Positions 43,573 to 55,821 of a DNA stretch of 64,000 nt are shown here, piece after piece (position 1 is the stretch's first letter; the number at the start of each line of letters is the position of its first letter). The notes under the pieces were generated by a model. That model had not been told where the DNA came from. It made no database searches and saw only the letters and a program-made list of their open reading frames with translations. A program made the translations under genes and the position numbers. Where the stretch lies: positions 1,612,001 through 1,676,000 of the forward strand of contig NZ_JABXWB010000001.1 of the NCBI RefSeq assembly GCF_013375555.1. Direction: 5' to 3'. Source of the DNA: Sphingobium sp. EM0848 (GTDB lineage: Bacteria > Pseudomonadota > Alphaproteobacteria > Sphingomonadales > Sphingomonadaceae).

Positions 43573-44451
43573 CTAAAACCAGAAACGCACGCCCGTCACC
43601 AGACTGGCGGCTGATGCCCGCTCTCCCCCGGCGCGGGCATAGCGGGCGGTTTCGCCCAACTTGCGTTCCCAGTTGACGCCGACATAGGGCGCGAATTCGC
43701 GGGCAAATTCATAGCGAAGACGCAGCCCCAGCTCGATATCGGAGAAGCCCGAACCGATACCCAGTTCCGGCACACGCTGCGCCGCGATATTCACCTCCGC
43801 CGCCGGTTGCAGGATCAGGCGCTGGGTGATGCGCTGGTCATAGCTGCCCTCCAGCCGCAGATGCGCGTCGCCCTTGTTGGAGAGGAAGGCCTGCGCACCG
43901 ACATTGAACCAGTAGGGCGCAAGACCCTCAATCCCCACGACCGCATAGCTGCGTTGCGGATCGGGGCGGATGTCGTGGCGCACGCCCGCCTGCAGATTGA
44001 ACCACGGATCGATGGCCCGGCTGTAGAGCGCCTGCACCTCCGCGCTTTCCAACCCGCCGCCGATCTTACCCTCGCCCTCGGTCCTGAAGGCGAAGCGGTT
44101 GATATCGCCGCCGATCCAGCCCTCCCCCTCCCAATGATAGCCATCCGCCCCCTTGCCCAGACGATATTCCAGCCGGTCGAGCATGAGTTGGGAGAAGATC
44201 ATGCCACCGCTTTCCTTGAGCATGGCGGCGCGGGCACGGGCCATGTCCGCAGCGTCGTAAAAGGCGTCGGCGGCATGGTCCCCCGGCGGCGTGGGTGCCG
44301 CGTTTTGAGGAGCGCCGCCATCGGCCACGGATTCGCCATGCCCGGCATGGGAATGGTCCATCGCGCCATGATCCATCTGGCCATGGTCCTGCGCCAGCGC
44401 AGGCGCCGAAACGGAAGCGAGCAACAACGCGGCCGAGATCAGCGCCTTCAC
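43573..44451 (-). CDS. copB: Copper resistance outer-membrane protein CopB
   Basis: A 292-residue copper resistance B protein. Signal peptide MKALISAALLLASVSAPALA is followed by a His/Met-rich segment (DHGQMDHGAMDHSHAGHG) that is the usual copper-binding region. The C-terminal 220 residues alternate like a beta-barrel and end in the outer-membrane-type terminal Phe (GVRFWF). It overlaps copA by four bases and is the last gene of the five-gene copper operon. Confidence 0.93.
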   Translation of the reverse strand: MKALISAALLLASVSAPALAQDHGQMDHGAMDHSHAGHGESVADGGAPQNAAPTPPGDHAADAFYDAADMARARAAMLKESGGMIFSQLMLDRLEYRLGKGADGYHWEGEGWIGGDINRFAFRTEGEGKIGGGLESAEVQALYSRAIDPWFNLQAGVRHDIRPDPQRSYAVVGIEGLAPYWFNVGAQAFLSNKGDAHLRLEGSYDQRITQRLILQPAAEVNIAAQRVPELGIGSGFSDIELGLRLRYEFAREFAPYVGVNWERKLGETARYARAGGERASAASLVTGVRFWF

Positions 44452-46184
44452 GCCGCCTCCTCCTCATGCCGGACCGTCACCACCCGCATCATCCCCGCAT
44501 GCATGTGCATCAGCATATGGCAGTGAAACGCCCAGTCCCCCAGCGCATCGGCTGTCAGGTCGAAGCTGACCTTCCCGCCCGGCAGCACGTTCACCGTATG
44601 CTTGCGCGGGGCATGCGCGCCCGCGCCCGTCACCAGCTCGAAGAAATGGCCGTGCAGGTGGATCGGATGCGGCATCATCGTATCGTTGATGAGGTTCACC
44701 CGCACCCGCTCCATATGGCGGAAAGGGATCGGTTCAGCCCCGTCCGACAGCTTCACCCCGTCGAAGGACCACATATAGCGCTCCATGTTCGCGGTCAGGT
44801 GAATGTCCAGCATACGCGTCGGCGCGCGACTATCCGGGTTGGGTTCAAGCGCCCTGAGATCGGCATAGGTCAGCACCCGATGATCGACCTGCTCCAATCC
44901 GGTGGGCCGGTCCGCAGTCCGATCCACCGGCATGGGCGACAATGTCGCCACTCCCGGCCCCATCTTCACCTGCGGAGCGACCGACCTGTCGCGCATCTTC
45001 ATCGAATGGCCGGCCATGCTGTCATTGGCGGGCTGGCTGAGATCCAGCACGCCGCCCTGCCCCATGTCCATTCCGGACATGTCCATGCCCATGTCCTTCA
45101 TGCCCAGCAGCGGCCGGTCCCGCACGGCAGGCACGTCCGCCACCATCCCCATGCGCGGCGCCAGCGTGGCCCGCACCAGCCCGGATCGATCGATCGCCTC
45201 CGCAATCAGCCCATAGGGGCGTGGCTCGGTCGGCTGGACCACCACATCATAGGTTTCCGCGATGCCAATCTGGAACTCGTCGGTTTCGACCGGCTGCACA
45301 TGCTGGCCGTCGCACTGCACCACCGTCATCGCCAGACCGGGCAACCGCACATTGAAATTGGTCATGGCCGACGCATTGACGATGCGCAGACGCACCCGTT
45401 CACCCGGTGTGAACAGCCCGGTCCAGTTCTCCGCCGTCCCATGCCCATTCACCAGAAAACTGTAGGTCGACCCCGTGACGTCCGAAATATCGGTCGGGTC
45501 CATCCGCATCGCGCCCCATTCGCGCCGCTCCCGTCCGCTCTGGTCCCTGCCCGCTATCTGCCCCGCCAGCGTCTGCTTCTGCATGTTGAAATAGCCACCC
45601 ATCTGCTTCAGCCGTTTCAACAGCAGATGCGGATGGATCGGACTCCAGTCGGACAGCACGATCACATGCTCGCGCTCACTGCGCACCGGATCGATGCCTG
45701 CGGGATCGATGACGATGGGGCCATAATGGCCGACCGCCTCCTGCATTCCCGAATGGCTGTGATACCAGTAGGTCCCCGACTGACGGACCGGAAATTCATA
45801 GGTGAAGGTCTCACCCGGCCCGATGCCAGGAAAGCTCACCCCCGGCACCCCGTCCATCTGAAAGGGCAGGATCAGCCCATGCCAGTGGATCGACGTATCC
45901 TCCCTGAGCCGGTTGGTGACGGACAGCCGCACATTCTGCCCCTCCTTGAGCCGGATCAGCGGGGCGGGCAGCGTTCCGTTGACCGTCACGGCATGGGCGG
46001 AACGTCCGCCGGTCGCGAAATGGCTTTCCCCCACGGTGAGCGCGATATGCTCCCCGCTCAGCGCGGCGGGAAGACCCGCTGTCCCGCTCCGCGCCCAGGC
46101 GGGGAAAGCGTGGCTCCATGCCAGCGCTCCGCCCAGCCCCCGGATCAGGCCGCGTCGATCAACTTCAGGAAGGGAAAATGCCAT
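44448..46184 (-). CDS. copA: Periplasmic multicopper oxidase CopA
   Basis: A 578-residue CopA-type multicopper oxidase, likely oxidising Cu(I) in the periplasm. A twin-arginine signal is present (DRRGLIRGLGGALAW). Copper-site motifs are all seen: HWHG, HSHSG, HPIHLHGHFF and the terminal HCHMLMHMHAGM. A Met-rich insert of MxxM repeats (MKDMGMDMSGMDMG), typical of CopA, lies at mid-protein. It starts 36 bases after the ECF sigma gene and overlaps copB, so sigma control of copAB is built into the operon. Confidence 0.95.
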   Translation of the reverse strand: MAFSLPEVDRRGLIRGLGGALAWSHAFPAWARSGTAGLPAALSGEHIALTVGESHFATGGRSAHAVTVNGTLPAPLIRLKEGQNVRLSVTNRLREDTSIHWHGLILPFQMDGVPGVSFPGIGPGETFTYEFPVRQSGTYWYHSHSGMQEAVGHYGPIVIDPAGIDPVRSEREHVIVLSDWSPIHPHLLLKRLKQMGGYFNMQKQTLAGQIAGRDQSGRERREWGAMRMDPTDISDVTGSTYSFLVNGHGTAENWTGLFTPGERVRLRIVNASAMTNFNVRLPGLAMTVVQCDGQHVQPVETDEFQIGIAETYDVVVQPTEPRPYGLIAEAIDRSGLVRATLAPRMGMVADVPAVRDRPLLGMKDMGMDMSGMDMGQGGVLDLSQPANDSMAGHSMKMRDRSVAPQVKMGPGVATLSPMPVDRTADRPTGLEQVDHRVLTYADLRALEPNPDSRAPTRMLDIHLTANMERYMWSFDGVKLSDGAEPIPFRHMERVRVNLINDTMMPHPIHLHGHFFELVTGAGAHAPRKHTVNVLPGGKVSFDLTADALGDWAFHCHMLMHMHAGMMRVVTVRHEEEAA

Positions 46185-46220
46185 GAGGATGCAAGTCTTT
46201 GTTGGGAGGACCGTTTCCCC

Positions 46221-46802
46221 CTATACGCGCGCCGCGTCGTCATCCCTCAATCGCTCGGCCAATTTGTTGCGCGCACGATAAAGGCGGGTTTCGACCGCCT
46301 TCTCGCTGATGCCCAATATCTGCGCAGTCTCGGCCTGACTCATTTCCTCAATGGCGCGCAGCAGTAGAACGTCCCTGAGATTGACCGGCAAGGCTGCGAT
46401 GGCGGCATCGATCCGTTCCAGTTCCGCCCGGCTCTGCACGACTTCCTCAGGCGTCGGCCCAGCGTCGGCGACCGCCCCGGCCTCCTCGATCGGCCGGGCA
46501 AAGGTGAAGAAACGCCGCACCGCGCGCCGCCGCGCCCAGTCATGGCATTTGTTGATCGCGATCCGCGCGATCCACAGGCGGAAGGGCCGCCCTCCATCAT
46601 AGCGGGCCAGAGCGGCGAAAGCGGAAATGAACGCCTCCTGCGTGATGTCGAGCGCCTCTGTCGCGTCCCCCACATGGCCGCGTGCCAGACGGAACACCCC
46701 GTCGCGATGCCGCCGCATCAGCTCGCCATAGGCGCTCTCCTGCCCGGCAAGAGCCAGCCCGGCGAGTTCCGCGTCGCTGCGATCGGTGAGCGAAACGCTC
46801 AC
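46221..46802 (-). CDS. ECF sigma factor, CnrH-like
   Basis: A 193-residue extracytoplasmic-function sigma factor. Region 2 runs from ESAYGELMRRHRDGVFRLA to ITQEAFISAFAALARYD; region 4 includes LLRAIEEMSQAETAQILGISEKAVETRLYRAR. Linked upstream to CnrY- and CnrX-like genes and downstream to copAB, it fits the CnrYXH signalling design. It starts four bases inside the sensor gene. Target promoters are probably the GAGGG-N15-GCGTATC pair in the adjacent divergent region (inference). Confidence 0.9.
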   Translation of the reverse strand: MSVSLTDRSDAELAGLALAGQESAYGELMRRHRDGVFRLARGHVGDATEALDITQEAFISAFAALARYDGGRPFRLWIARIAINKCHDWARRRAVRRFFTFARPIEEAGAVADAGPTPEEVVQSRAELERIDAAIAALPVNLRDVLLLRAIEEMSQAETAQILGISEKAVETRLYRARNKLAERLRDDDAARV

Positions 46803-47269
46803 CTTTGTGGTTGCGACTGGGCCGGTTGCGACTGGCCGGGGTCGGTCAGGGCCTTGACGACAGCGGCGTCGAACTGCGCCGCCTGATCCCGCCGCAGCAC
46901 GGCCCGCATCGCGAAAATATGCTTCAGCGTTTCCTTCTGAAGCATGCCCATGACATGATGGGAACGGTCGACGGCCTCACCCACTTTCGGGCCATAGCCA
47001 TGCTCCGCCGCGATTGCCTGCGCCAGACGGGCATTGTCAGCGCGCATCTCCGCCTCCATCGCCTCGCGCCGTCTGGCGAAATCGGCCTCCAGCGCGTGGA
47101 TGCGCTGCTCCTGCGCGGCATCCAGTTTCAGCTTCCTGTGGATGAGGGCATGAACCTCGCTCTCCACCCGTGGCTCAGGCGCGATCCAGACCCGCGCGAC
47201 CAGCACCGCCGCCAGCGCCGCCGCAAAGGCGACCAACGCAACCAGCCCATAGCGCATCGCGCCCTTCAC
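46799..47269 (-). CDS. CnrX-like periplasmic heavy-metal sensor
   Basis: A 156-residue sensor with one N-terminal membrane helix at about 7-28 and a helical periplasmic domain. The five metal ligands of CnrX are all in register, each shifted by two: His40 and His44 (EVHALIHRK), Glu61, His117 and Met121 (KHIFAMRAV), against 42/46/63/119/123 in Cupriavidus. In CnrYXH this protein binds metal and makes CnrY release the sigma factor. Here the genetic context points to copper rather than nickel/cobalt, which is inference. One base separates it from the CnrY-like gene. Confidence 0.88.
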   Translation of the reverse strand: MKGAMRYGLVALVAFAAALAAVLVARVWIAPEPRVESEVHALIHRKLKLDAAQEQRIHALEADFARRREAMEAEMRADNARLAQAIAAEHGYGPKVGEAVDRSHHVMGMLQKETLKHIFAMRAVLRRDQAAQFDAAVVKALTDPGQSQPAQSQPQR

Positions 47270-47270
47270 C

Positions 47271-47549
47271 TTATTGCTCCAGCAGGCGCGACGGCGCGTA
47301 ATCGGACATGCCGATCACGACCGGCCGCGATACCGCCTGCGCCGGGTGGCCGGGCACAACGCTGCCGACCCAGCCGATCCCGATGGCGACGATTCCCGCC
47401 AGCGCCAGACTGCGCCGCGCCACCGTCCGTTCGCGGCGGATGGTGACGCCCGCCATGACCGCCTCTTCCATCGCCTCCAGACGCGGATCGTCCGGGCCAT
47501 TCCGCATCCGGGCGCGCAGCTGGCCGAGCAGCAGATCCAGGTCGCTCAT
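47271..47549 (-). CDS. CnrY-like anti-sigma factor
   Basis: A 92-residue single-pass membrane protein. A short cytoplasmic part (LDLLLGQLRARMRNGPDDPRL) precedes one helix (SLALAGIVAIGIGWVGSVV) and a small periplasmic tail. Size, topology and position before the CnrX-like and sigma genes fit CnrY, which traps the sigma factor at the membrane. ATG 47549 has GGAG eight bases upstream; GTG 47552 is an alternative. Sequence conservation alone is weak, so the call leans on context. Confidence 0.75.
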   Translation of the reverse strand: MSDLDLLLGQLRARMRNGPDDPRLEAMEEAVMAGVTIRRERTVARRSLALAGIVAIGIGWVGSVVPGHPAQAVSRPVVIGMSDYAPSRLLEQ

Positions 47550-47577
47550 CACTCACACTCCCATGTCTTCGCCTGAA

Positions 47578-47604
47578 GATACGCGGTGCGCGCTCCTATC
47601 CCTC
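47578..47604 (-). promoter_or_regulatory. Promoter-like motif GAGGG-N15-GCGTATC facing the anti-sigma gene
   Basis: On the minus strand GAGGG (47604-47600), 15 bases, GCGTATC (47584-47578), ending 28 bases before the ATG of the CnrY-like gene. The same motif with the same spacing faces copC. The upstream part is conserved as GAGGGRTRGGA in both. Probably the target of the local ECF factor. Confidence 0.6.
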
Positions 47605-47629
47605 ATGCAAAAATTTCAGTCTGCGCGTC

Positions 47630-47656
47630 GAGGGGTGGGAAAATTCGATGCGTATC
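47630..47656 (+). promoter_or_regulatory. Promoter-like motif GAGGG-N15-GCGTATC facing copC
   Basis: GAGGG (47630-47634), 15 bases, GCGTATC (47650-47656), ending 33 bases before the copC ATG. It mirrors the motif facing the CnrY-like gene, so the two transcription units are likely co-induced. Confidence 0.6.
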
Positions 47657-47689
47657 CATCCTTAAGCAACCCCATTGGAGACCATAGCC

Positions 47690-48067
47690 ATGCGTCGCAT
47701 CCTGTTCGCCACCGCACTCGCCCTGACGGCCCTGCCCAGCATGGCCATGGCGCACGCCACGCTTCTGTCCTCCACTCCAGCCGCGGGCGCCACCGTCGTC
47801 CGGCCGACCGGCCTCAGCCTCACCTTCTCCGAAACGATGCAGCCCCCCTTGAGCGGCATCGACCTCACCATGACCGGAATGCCCGGCATGACCAATCATG
47901 CGCCGATGCCGGTCAAGGGATTCAGGACCGCCGTCGAAGGCGACGGCAAGACAATGACCATCACCCTGCCCCGCGCACTGCCGGCGGGCGATTACGACAT
48001 CGACTGGCACTTCGTCGGCGCCGACCAGCACAGGACTTCGGGTAAAATCAGCTTCTCGGTCAAATAG
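47690..48067 (+). CDS. copC: Copper resistance protein CopC
   Basis: A 125-residue periplasmic copper carrier. The signal peptide ends in SMAMAHATLLSS, so the mature protein starts at or next to the copper-ligand His, as in CopC/YobA. The C-terminal ligand region DWHFVGADQHR is present, and the Met motif MTGMPGMTNHAPMP may form the Cu(I) site. ATG 47690 follows GGAG by nine bases. Its usual membrane partner CopD is not adjacent; the next gene lies on the other strand. Confidence 0.92.
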   Translation: MRRILFATALALTALPSMAMAHATLLSSTPAAGATVVRPTGLSLTFSETMQPPLSGIDLTMTGMPGMTNHAPMPVKGFRTAVEGDGKTMTITLPRALPAGDYDIDWHFVGADQHRTSGKISFSVK

Positions 48068-52354: not shown

Positions 52355-53719
52355 TCACCCCTGCATCCGATATTGCTTGAGCAGATCGTAGAGCGTCGGC
52401 CGGCTGATCCCCAAAATCTTCGCAGCGCCGGAAATATTCCCGTCCGTCCGCGCAATCGCACGCCGGATCGCGCGGCGGTCGGCCATTTCCCGCGCGGCCT
52501 TCAGGTTCACCACATCGCCACCCTCGGCACGATCCCCGTCAAGGTCGAGATCGGCAGCGGTGACATGTTTGCCGTCCGCCATGATGACGGCGCGCTTCAT
52601 GCGGTTTTCCAGTTCACGGACATTGCCCGGCCAGCCCCAGCCGTCGAGCGCCGCCAGCGCGTCGGGCCCAAGGCCCTTGACCTGCGGGTTCATATCCTGG
52701 GCAAAGCGGTTGAGGAAATGCCGCGCCAGCAGGGCCGGATCGCCGGGCCTATCCTTGAGCGCCGGAATGCGCACGACGATCTCCGCCAGCCGGTAATAGA
52801 GGTCCTCGCGGAAACCGCCTGCCGCGATCATCGCCTCCAGATCCTGATGCGTCGCGCAGACGATCCGCGTGTCGACCGCTATGGGTTGCCGCCCGCCGAT
52901 CCGCTCGATCACCCGATCCTGCAGGAAGCGCAACAGCTTCACCTGCAAGGCCAATGGAATGTCGCCCACCTCGTCGAGAAACAATGTGCCGCCCTGCGCC
53001 AGTTCGATCTTGCCCGGCATGGTCTTGATCGCCCCGGTGAAGGCGCCCTTTTCATGCCCGAACAGCTCCGCTTCCAGCAGCGTTTCCGGGATCGCCGCGC
53101 AGTTGATCGCGACAAAGGCGCCTTCTCGGCGCGGGCTGGCGTCGTGCAGGCCCTGCGCCAGCAATTCCTTGCCGGTGCCGCTCGCGCCCAGCAGCAGCAC
53201 GGACACATCCGCCCCCGCCACCCGCTCTATGGTGCGGGCGACCTTCATCATCTCCGGCGCGGCGGTGATCAGGCGGCCCAGCACGCGCCCACTCTCCGGC
53301 GCGGTTTCGGAAAGGCGCGCATTCTCCTGCTCCAACGCATGGACATGGAAAGCGCGACGGACGATCAGGCCCAGTTCATCAATGTCCACCGGCTTCTGGT
53401 AGAAATCATAAGCGCCGCCGGAAATGGCGTTGAGGGCGCTTTCCCGCGCGCCATGGCCGGATGCGACGATGACTTTCGTATCCGGCTTGATCCGCAAAAT
53501 CTCCGCCAGCGTCGCGAATCCCTCGCTGGTGCCGTCGGGATCGGGCGGCAGGCCCAGGTCCAGCGTCACCACGTCGGGCGCCTGTTCCCGCAGCATTTCG
53601 ATCGCCTCCTCACGGTCGCCCGCGATGAAGAGCTGATATTCCTCATAGGCCCAGCGCAGTTGCCGCTGCAGGCCCGGATCGTCCTCCACGATCAGCAATT
53701 TCGGTCGCGTATCGCTCAT
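52355..53719 (-). CDS. prsR: PEP-CTERM/exosortase system response regulator PrsR
   Basis: A 454-residue sigma-54-dependent activator. The receiver has phospho-Asp54 in TLDLGLPPDPDG. The AAA+ domain has Walker A GASGTGKE, the sigma-54-contact loop GAFTGA, and LFLDEVGDIPLALQVKLLRFLQ. A Fis-type HTH closes the protein (ISGAAKILGISRPTLYDLLKQY). The long acidic receiver and immediate linkage to a PrsK-type kinase identify the exopolysaccharide/PEP-CTERM regulator rather than NtrC. The start shares one base with the prsK stop. Confidence 0.92.
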   Translation of the reverse strand: MSDTRPKLLIVEDDPGLQRQLRWAYEEYQLFIAGDREEAIEMLREQAPDVVTLDLGLPPDPDGTSEGFATLAEILRIKPDTKVIVASGHGARESALNAISGGAYDFYQKPVDIDELGLIVRRAFHVHALEQENARLSETAPESGRVLGRLITAAPEMMKVARTIERVAGADVSVLLLGASGTGKELLAQGLHDASPRREGAFVAINCAAIPETLLEAELFGHEKGAFTGAIKTMPGKIELAQGGTLFLDEVGDIPLALQVKLLRFLQDRVIERIGGRQPIAVDTRIVCATHQDLEAMIAAGGFREDLYYRLAEIVVRIPALKDRPGDPALLARHFLNRFAQDMNPQVKGLGPDALAALDGWGWPGNVRELENRMKRAVIMADGKHVTAADLDLDGDRAEGGDVVNLKAAREMADRRAIRRAIARTDGNISGAAKILGISRPTLYDLLKQYRMQG

Positions 53720-55821
53720 CAGGCGGCCTTCCCCCCAACCATTTTCCCTGAAGAAATCTCTTCCCCCGAAGCCAAAGGCAGGCGCAGCGTGAAACGGCTG
53801 CCCACTCCCGGCTTGCTTTCCACATCGATCCGGCCGCCCATGGCTTGCGCGAGCGCCCGCGCCTCGAACGCACCGATGCCAAAGCCCCCCGCCTTGCTGG
53901 ACGAGAAGGGCTTGAACAGTTCGCGGCGGATGAATTCGGCGCTCATGCCCCGGCCCTGATCGACCACTTCGAGCAAGGCGTCGCCGCCGTCCGTCGAGAG
54001 GCGCAGTTCGACCGGACTGTCCGGCGCACTGGCGTCGATGGCATTTTGCAGCAGGTGGATCAGGATCTGCTCGACTCGCACCGGATCGGCCATCGCCAAC
54101 GGCGCCTCGCCAGTGACGGACACTGGATGCTGGCGCGAGCGGGTGCCCGCGACCTGCCGCGCGACCTCATCCAGCGCCATCGGTCGCGGTTCCTCCGCCC
54201 TGCCCTTATTATGTTGCGACAGGCGAGCGAGCATGTCGTTCATCTTGCCCACGGACTCTTTCAGCGTCAGCACCATGTCGGCGCGGAAATCGGGATTGTC
54301 GGCATGCCGCTCCGCATTGCGGGCGAGCAGGGAGAGCTGGCTCACCAGATTCTTCACGTCATGGATGATGAAGGCGAAGCGGCGGTTGAATTCATCGAAG
54401 CGCTGTGCGTCGTCCAGCGCCTGCTGCCCCTGCGCCTCGCTCAGATAGCTGGCCGCCTGCCGTCCGGCAGCGCGCAGCATGTCGAAATCTTCCCAGTCGA
54501 GCCGCCGGTCTATGGGCGGGCGGGCGAGCAGGATCGCGCCGATCAGCCGGCCGAAGTGAATGAGCGGCACCATCGCCCAGGCCCGGCGATCCTCGCTCAT
54601 CCAGCCGGGTGCGACGACCTCGCCCACCGCACTGGTTGGACGGGCGACATCGATGATCCAGCCGCTTTGTTCGATCAGCAGCGCGACCGGTGCGGGAACC
54701 ACCGCGTCGTCAGGCAACTCACCCAGCCAGTTCCACTGTGTTTCAAAGACCAGCGCGCCATCCTCGCCACGCAGCATCAGGATGGCGGCGGGGGAATCGG
54801 TGATGTCGGCCACCGCCTTCGCCACACGCTCGCCCAGCGGCAGGGCATTGTCGCCCCTGTCGCCCCCCGCCCGGCCAATGGTATCGCCAAAACGCATCCA
54901 TTCCGTGCGATAATCATAACGATGCTGGAAGAAATGCTTGGCGACCTGCACCTTCCAGAAGGCGTGCAACCGGCGCGAAGGCAGCAGCACGAGCGCGCTG
55001 ACCGCCATGAAGAAGACACAGCCGATCTCCACCACCCGGGCATAGGGACCGGCGACCAGTTCAACCAGAACCGCCGCCGCCGTCAGCGCGACGACATAGA
55101 GCAGCACGGCCGCCAGCGACAGCGACTGGAAAGTCAGCGTGCGCGACAATTGCAAACGGCCGTTGATATCATTGCGGATTCCCGCCCCGATGACCGGCGC
55201 CAACAGCGCCATCATCGCGCCGCGCAAGGCGTACAGCTCATTCGCCCGGTGCATCGCGAAATAGCCGATGGCGTAGAGATTGAGATCATAGGTCCACATT
55301 GCCGCCAGCGCGCCCAGCAGCAACGCCACCCGGCCCCGCTCCCGGATCGCCCAATTGACATAGAGATGATGGACCAGGATCAGGCTGCCGATCGCGGTCA
55401 TCATGTGCAGGACCAGCGAGACATGGACGAGCGCTTGATGCACCTCGCTCATCACCGGCAATTGCCGCCAGATGAGGTCGGTGAAGGTCTGGAGCAGGAT
55501 CAGCCCGGCCACCGACGCATAAAGCGATCCGATCGCCACCATAGACCCGGTCCGCGCCGCTGGCCCCCGCCGCAACATGACGAACAGCAGCAGCAGCCAG
55601 GCGGCGTTGCGGATATTTTCGCCAATGCCGGTCAGCGGCTTTTCCACCCCGCCGAAGGACACATAGAGCGACCAGCAGGAGGTCAGCAGCAACGCGGAAG
55701 CCAGCAGGCGCTGTTCCGGCGCTTCATCACGGCGACGCAGGATGAAGATGCCGAGCGCCGCGAACAGCACGGCGGCCAATGCATGGCCCCAATCCCCGAC
55801 AAATTGCAGGAGCGTGCCCAT
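53719..55821 (-). CDS. prsK: PEP-CTERM/exosortase system sensor histidine kinase PrsK
   Basis: A 700-residue kinase. About eight to nine N-terminal membrane segments fill residues 1-290, a GAF-like domain lies near 320-450, then the divergent H-box FAFIIHDVKNLVSQLSLLARNAERH, N box LIHLLQNAIDAS, G1 DQGRGMS and G2 region AGGFGIGAFEARALA. This arrangement and the IHDVKN motif are distinctive for PrsK. It regulates exopolysaccharide and PEP-CTERM protein genes through PrsR and sigma-54. Nine bases separate it from the sugar transferase. Confidence 0.92.
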   Translation of the reverse strand: MGTLLQFVGDWGHALAAVLFAALGIFILRRRDEAPEQRLLASALLLTSCWSLYVSFGGVEKPLTGIGENIRNAAWLLLLFVMLRRGPAARTGSMVAIGSLYASVAGLILLQTFTDLIWRQLPVMSEVHQALVHVSLVLHMMTAIGSLILVHHLYVNWAIRERGRVALLLGALAAMWTYDLNLYAIGYFAMHRANELYALRGAMMALLAPVIGAGIRNDINGRLQLSRTLTFQSLSLAAVLLYVVALTAAAVLVELVAGPYARVVEIGCVFFMAVSALVLLPSRRLHAFWKVQVAKHFFQHRYDYRTEWMRFGDTIGRAGGDRGDNALPLGERVAKAVADITDSPAAILMLRGEDGALVFETQWNWLGELPDDAVVPAPVALLIEQSGWIIDVARPTSAVGEVVAPGWMSEDRRAWAMVPLIHFGRLIGAILLARPPIDRRLDWEDFDMLRAAGRQAASYLSEAQGQQALDDAQRFDEFNRRFAFIIHDVKNLVSQLSLLARNAERHADNPDFRADMVLTLKESVGKMNDMLARLSQHNKGRAEEPRPMALDEVARQVAGTRSRQHPVSVTGEAPLAMADPVRVEQILIHLLQNAIDASAPDSPVELRLSTDGGDALLEVVDQGRGMSAEFIRRELFKPFSSSKAGGFGIGAFEARALAQAMGGRIDVESKPGVGSRFTLRLPLASGEEISSGKMVGGKAA

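Follow-up and report, generated by a model that had tools for sequence, protein, structure and literature searches.

A Conserved GAGGG-N15-GCGTA Element and a CnrYXH-Type Regulator Predicted to Control Copper Genes in Sphingobium

The locus considered here raises the question of which regulator reads a bipartite element that occurs twice, in opposite orientation, between a CnrY-like gene and copC. It is part of a stretch of 64,000 nucleotides from Sphingobium sp. EM0848 (contig NZ_JABXWB010000001.1, positions 1,612,001 to 1,676,000), referred to below as the window. On the minus strand, the genes for a CnrY-like protein, a Metal_resist sensor, an ECF sigma factor, CopA and CopB follow one another, with copC running in the opposite direction (Table 1). 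CnrH is both the best PDB match and the nearest solved relative of the sigma factor. The CnrY-like protein contains one hydrophobic segment, as judged by eye, and has an alternative GTG start at 47552; searches of Pfam, NCBIfam and the PDB returned no match for it, or none that was meaningful in the case of the PDB, and by place and size this small membrane protein is a candidate CnrY-type anti-sigma factor. Since the neighbors are copA, copB and copC, with no cobalt-nickel pump, the genes are considered to represent a CnrYXH-type regulator and not a cnr resistance determinant. As a separate observation, the sigma gene starts with a GTG and overlaps the sensor stop codon, and a strong hairpin (46785-46803) spans this junction; among 31 other loci that were folded, with the start in about half of them set from a match beginning further in, it stood out clearly in only a handful of near relatives.

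Both opposed elements of the original prediction are present in the 137-base region between the CnrY-like gene and copC, where P1 (GAGGGATAGGAGCGCGCACCGCGTATC) and P2 (GAGGGGTGGGAAAATTCGATGCGTATC) match GAGGG-N15-GCGTATC exactly, each with the 15-base spacer that had been described. They stop 28 and 33 bases short of the ATG start codons at positions 47549 (-) and 47690 (+), respectively, as described. Across the 5,638,963-base genome, the exact motif occurs at these two positions only, and one more match has a 16-base spacer. When the 137-base region was shuffled with dinucleotide composition preserved, a repeated dyad of the form 5+N(10-20)+7 appeared in 14 of 3000 shuffles, or about 0.5% for the locus alone. 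The evidence from relatives is far stronger than this figure. A possible UP-like element is the A/T-rich stretch that separates the -35 boxes of P1 and P2.

Table 1. Features of the copper locus and the basis of each assignment (positions in the window)
Feature	Position	Strand	Basis
P1, candidate promoter of the CnrY-like/CnrX-like/sigma operon (-35 GAGGG 47600-47604; -10 GCGTAT 47579-47584)	47578..47604	-	Exact match; boxes kept in 25 aligned genus loci; 66/78 non-redundant loci
P2, candidate promoter of copC (-35 GAGGG 47630-47634; -10 GCGTAT 47650-47655)	47630..47656	+	Exact match; divergent site in 50/78 non-redundant loci
P3, candidate promoter of copAB	46222..46248	-	One-mismatch match; 61/78 loci with a site here
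A/T-rich tract between the two -35 boxes	47609..47616		Partly kept in the 25-locus alignment
CnrY-like anti-sigma candidate, 92 aa	47271..47549	-	Position, size, order
CnrX-like periplasmic metal sensor, Metal_resist PF13801	46799..47269	-	Pfam 1e-16
ECF sigma factor	46221..46802	-	Pfam sigma regions 2 and 4; CnrH 4cxf E 1.8e-33
copA, copper-resistance multicopper oxidase	44448..46184	-	TIGR01480 above cut-off
copB	43573..44451	-	PF05275 2.3e-90
copC, periplasmic copper-binding protein	47690..48067	+	NF033814 above cut-off

A scan of the window with mismatches allowed revealed a third site, P3 (GAGGG-N15-GCGTATA), which is one base off GCGTATC and points toward copA (ATG start codon at 46184). 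With up to two mismatches, the window contains eight matches against 7.93 expected, which is chance level for the pattern overall, and P3 was accepted because of its position and conservation, not its score. It sits within the final codons of the sigma gene, the TAG stop being part of GCGTATAG and overlapping the -10 box; through this overlap, the last codons and the stop of the gene would double as promoter boxes. Of the 61 relatives with a copA site, 45 show the same overlap with the sigma gene end. These findings support a third promoter, overlooked in the original prediction, that would belong to copA itself. The overlaps in the 45 relatives fall at preferred offsets, namely 10, 2, 28 or 9 bases inside the sigma gene.

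Conservation was assessed in 110 loci, comprising the best 30 from a sensor search and the best 80 of 281 from a sigma-factor search, which were reduced to 87 by deduplication at 92% sigma identity and to 78 by retaining those with a sensor match under 1e-8; the 78 are top matches and not a random sample. Among these non-redundant loci, GAGGG-N15-GCGTA is found before the anti-sigma gene in 66, at the divergent position in 50 and before copA in 61, a distribution that agrees with the proposed shared regulon of sensor, copAB and copC. All three positions are occupied in 39 loci, at least two in 64 and at least one in 74; the conservation in homologous loci on which the original prediction had staked itself was thus found. 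An annotated example is the Sphingobium yanoikuyae plasmid pSES220 (copD-copC, sensor, sigma factor, copA, copB), with sites at all three positions. The four loci without an N15 site at these positions (L027, L097, L100 and L112) include L112, from Stakelama pacifica, which has GAGGG-N16 sites in their place, and L100, which has GAGGG-N15-GCGTA sites elsewhere.

The spacing is strict. Across 0.5 Mb from 68 named loci (L041-L108), the GAGGG/GCGTA pair was counted 167 times with a spacer of 15 and zero to three times with each of the other spacers from 10 to 20, the reversed-letter control giving zero to four. An unbiased count of all 5+N+5 dyads with spacers of 12-19 was also made in the 78 loci. 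In the 300 bases upstream of the operon, its top gapped dyad was GAGGG-15-GCGTA, reverse complement included, in 72 loci; dyads were also frequent in the coding-region control (the top one in 40 of 78), which in our own reading reflects conserved codons. The first long open ATG follows at a median of 26-37 bases past the sites (65, 52 and 49 sites).

Some letters of the original motif proved more durable than others. The core letters were fixed by the way in which sites were collected; among the flanking ones, a T recurs at -1 (70-96%), at +6 (65-72%) and after GCGTA (67-78%). Within the proposed upstream part GAGGGRTRGGA, the T at +6 stands, but the RGGA portion is weak, its best position being a G that reaches 68% among divergent sites. 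The seven-base identity of the -10 part does not extend to relatives, in which the final C of GCGTATC is not conserved. What stays constant is GAGGG-N15-GCGTA, in most cases with a T in front and a T at two further places. An alignment of 25 of 30 genus loci, from which five were excluded because the copC or CnrY-like match was missing or off the gene start, was also examined: the four boxes form columns on which every row, or at least 85% of them, agrees, amid variable spacers and mostly variable flanks, and a few rows (e.g., L196, L204 and L205) have an altered box.

The element also follows the sensor gene from genome to genome. In the family, 298 genomes were searched with the sensor, and 126 were positive at E <= 1e-10. 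The pattern GAGGGR-N14-GCGTAT was found at 238 sites in the positive genomes, compared with 45 in the control, and at 44 sites in the 172 genomes without a sensor match, compared with 49 in the control; at least one site was present in 108 of the 126 and in 41 of the 172, the strict pattern being absent in 18 sensor-positive genomes. For the 94 genus genomes, TGAGGGR-N14-GCGTAT gave 256 sites, against seven in the control by a hand count. A sensor match at E <= 1e-20 was present in 85 of them, five of which lack a site (G076, G703, G707, G723 and G731), and one of the nine sensor-negative genomes has one (G725), both as judged by eye. Outside the family, the sensor is rare (five of 385 class genomes at E <= 1e-8, three of these outside the family), and each of the three non-family loci (L161, L162 and L163) carries at least one N15 site. 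Such a fall in site abundance to background where the sensor gene is missing is not expected of an unrelated regulator.

A scan of the whole genome, proposed together with the original prediction, returned the copper-gene sites of this locus but nothing else convincing. GAGGG-N15-GCGTA gave seven matches, against 10 in the reversed-letter control; three are at the locus, and the other four lie inside long open frames, two of them being copies of one repeat. When the T, R and W positions were added and one mismatch was allowed, 16 matches were obtained against seven in the control, and each of the 13 outside the locus falls within an open frame of at least 100 aa, which is weak evidence against any single site because long frames are common in GC-rich DNA. 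As no further convincing target emerged from the strict and relaxed scans of this genome, the regulon appears to be confined to one locus here. In relatives, extra sites precede moved copC or copA genes; genes for DUF411, DUF326 Cys-rich, DUF2231 and DUF305 proteins; and genes of cytochrome c-type, ArsP-type and, by eye, TonB-receptor-like kinds. The sites before DUF411, DUF326, cytochrome c-type, DUF2231 and DUF305 genes were noted in L045, L235, L174, L089, L250, L158, L160 and L173, and their position suggests that these genes may encode uncharacterized metal-response proteins. One site precedes a second sigma-factor-like gene (L157:1665-2255), and a regulatory cascade is possible there. 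Genome G102 has two sites at distances of about 40 and 22 kb from its sensor locus, with near-identical ones at similar distances in G099 and G290. Several other extra sites are not followed by any plausible gene, and chance probably accounts for them.

The characterized cnr promoters of Cupriavidus metallidurans provide a point of reference. On pMOL28, AAGGG-N16-CCGTATA lies upstream of cnrY and GAGGG-N16-CCGTATA upstream of cnrC. According to the available sections of PMC9045368, primer extension mapped transcription initiation to 24 and 25 bases upstream of the genes, and in both promoters this is eight bases past the last T of CCGTAT. If the same spacing applies, transcription in the window would start at about 47571 (-), 47663 (+) and 46215 (-), with predicted leaders to the ATG of approximately 22, 27 and 31 bases for P1, P2 and P3, respectively. 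Spacers of 16 bases, some of them counted by eye, were also seen in a Cupriavidus plasmid (L155), in Caulobacter (L153 and L156) and in Stakelama. A tree of 88 sigma factors set the CnrH clade (79 rows, including the window factor) apart from nine other ECF factors with 100/100 support; the N16 loci (L152, L155, L112, L153 and L156) belong to the same clade, their five rows occupying three places within it, with long branches and an uncertain deep order.

Taken together, P1, P2 and P3 are best explained as promoters read by the adjacent CnrH-like ECF factor in a CnrYXH-type relay, a sequence-based reading to which a probability of roughly 0.92 may be assigned. The strict spacing, the conservation, the co-occurrence with the sensor and the cnr-like boxes all argue that the recognition sequence was correctly attributed to this factor. 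The sites, their orientation and the families of sigma factor and sensor are likewise observed, whereas we infer sigma binding, the transcription starts given above, the anti-sigma role of the small protein and the metal. The steps would be linked as follows. The periplasmic CnrX-like sensor would bind a metal ion, and the metal-bound sensor would loosen the CnrY-like membrane anti-sigma factor. The freed sigma factor would direct RNA polymerase to (T)GAGGGR-N14-GCGTAW, thereby raising its own operon from P1, copC from P2 and copAB from P3.

Among PDB chains, the sensor is closest in sequence to CnrX and NccX, and its predicted structure (mean pLDDT 82.4) superimposes on CnrX chains with TM-scores of 0.79-0.86 by target length and on NccX with 0.67. 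The CnrX metal ligands, which we take to be H42, H46, E63, H119 and M123, are all kept in the window sensor as H40, H44, E61, H117 and M121. PDB titles name CnrX E63 and M123 mutants, and that of 3epv names a copper-bound form. In the available text of PMC7689651, Zn-bound CnrX is described as non-functional and M123 as required for signaling. Among 82 CnrX-like sensors aligned with CnrX, the five ligands are complete in 77, and four more differ only at the methionine. A further pair of residues marks the copper-linked sensors: H104 is present in 80 of 83 rows and M107 in 81 of 83 (CnrX included), the two aligned Cupriavidus sensors having E and A at these positions. A single predicted helix (residues 94-124) bears H104, M107, H117 and M121, and by helix geometry the H104/M107 pair would lie some 15-20 Angstrom from H117, about three helical turns away from the metal site. 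The surrounding His-x-x-Met-Gly motif is near-invariant in the aligned copper-linked CnrX-like sensors. By comparison, the sensor homologue of L100, a proteobacterial MAG, has lost all five ligands (YNGYV), though its locus has N15 sites.

Copper is the likely signal, and nickel or cobalt a possible one. A relay that answers to nickel or cobalt, with the copper genes as a cross-response, would be a variant of the same promoter reading and falls within its odds, where we regard it as less likely than not yet worth keeping in view. The Ni/Co-binding ligands of CnrX are those that most of the aligned sensors retain in full, and in the available sections of PMC5557971, 10 mM nickel is reported to have raised CopA, CopB and CopC in Sphingobium sp. 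ba1, whose authors described a nickel-adaptation role of these proteins as unreported to their knowledge. A nickel-responsive CnrX-like sensor driving copper genes would offer a possible reason for this effect (PMC5557971). However, the genes behind the sites in relatives are mostly copper genes, H104 and M107 are shared by the copper-linked sensors and absent from the two Cupriavidus ones, and the copAB cluster of ba1 has a different gene order. The word "sigma" does not occur in the main text of the ba1 nickel paper (PMC5557971).

A different explanation is that the repeat serves as the operator of another regulator (CopR-, CueR- or CsoR-like) and flanks these genes by chance. Copper genes are often under CopRS control, and mirrored pairs in divergent regions are a common layout for repressors and activators. 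Nevertheless, the site also precedes copA as a lone copy and in many cases runs into the end of the sigma gene; its orientation and 15-base gap are fixed, its abundance tracks the sensor gene, and its boxes match those of cnrYp and cnrCp. A simple consensus scan of 46100-47800 detected no sigma-70-like promoter. An operator of this sort is accordingly very improbable. No two-component system was seen adjoining the cop locus; a regulator/kinase pair 4-8 kb away (52355-55821) was judged by eye to be of another kind. Functionless chance or local duplication, for which only the similar dyads in the shuffled regions speak, is judged refuted by the relatives and practically negligible, given the 74 positive loci among 78 with diverged spacers and the boxes kept amid variable intergenic DNA.

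For a sigma system linked to copper, the CnrYXH-type reading of P1, P2 and P3 yields a concrete recognition sequence, a map of three promoters and a signal that can be tested. It also makes two questions accessible to experiment, namely what determines the metal choice of a CnrX-type sensor and how the spacer preference of an ECF factor shifts by one base. More broadly, sphingomonads and some other alphaproteobacteria might use the CnrYXH lineage as a periplasmic copper sensor, with the nickel/cobalt ligand set retained, a three-site module, H104/M107 and a spacer of 15 or 16 according to sigma lineage, so that metal specificity and spacing would both have been re-tuned within one clade; this proposal is tentative, and we hold it at somewhat less than even odds. 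Full-text searches, judged by titles and the beginnings of abstracts, returned no report of CnrYXH-type control of sphingomonad copper genes, and the motif may be printed in 10.1093/nar/gkaa1229 or PMC94428.

Several known systems share parts of this arrangement. The copABCD operons governed by CopRS or PcoRS contain the same copA, copB and copC, whereas control there is exerted by a two-component system. CorE of Myxococcus is, like the window factor, an ECF factor tied to a multicopper oxidase and copper homeostasis (available sections of PMC10141476 and PMC8999054). CorE, however, detects copper by means of a Cys-rich extension at its C-terminus, whereas the window factor has a sensor and a small membrane protein alongside and no Cys-rich tail (193 residues, with region 4 at 129-181 and the end AERLRDDDAARV). 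SigF/NrsF of Caulobacter and SigAb of Acinetobacter are likewise copper-stress ECF factors, but they have other partners and targets, and the available sections of the papers describing them mention no CnrX-like sensor (PMC8224329, PMC12153292). The closest likeness is to CnrYXH itself, with which the locus shares the Y-X-H gene order, a sigma factor nearest to CnrH, a sensor fold with five metal ligands, promoter positions ahead of the operon and directly behind the sigma gene, and the boxes GAGGG and CGTAT. It differs in its output, which is copA, copB and copC here and the CnrCBA efflux pump there, in its divergent third promoter, in a spacer of 15 instead of the 16 of Cupriavidus, and in the residues H104 and M107, which are E and A in CnrX.
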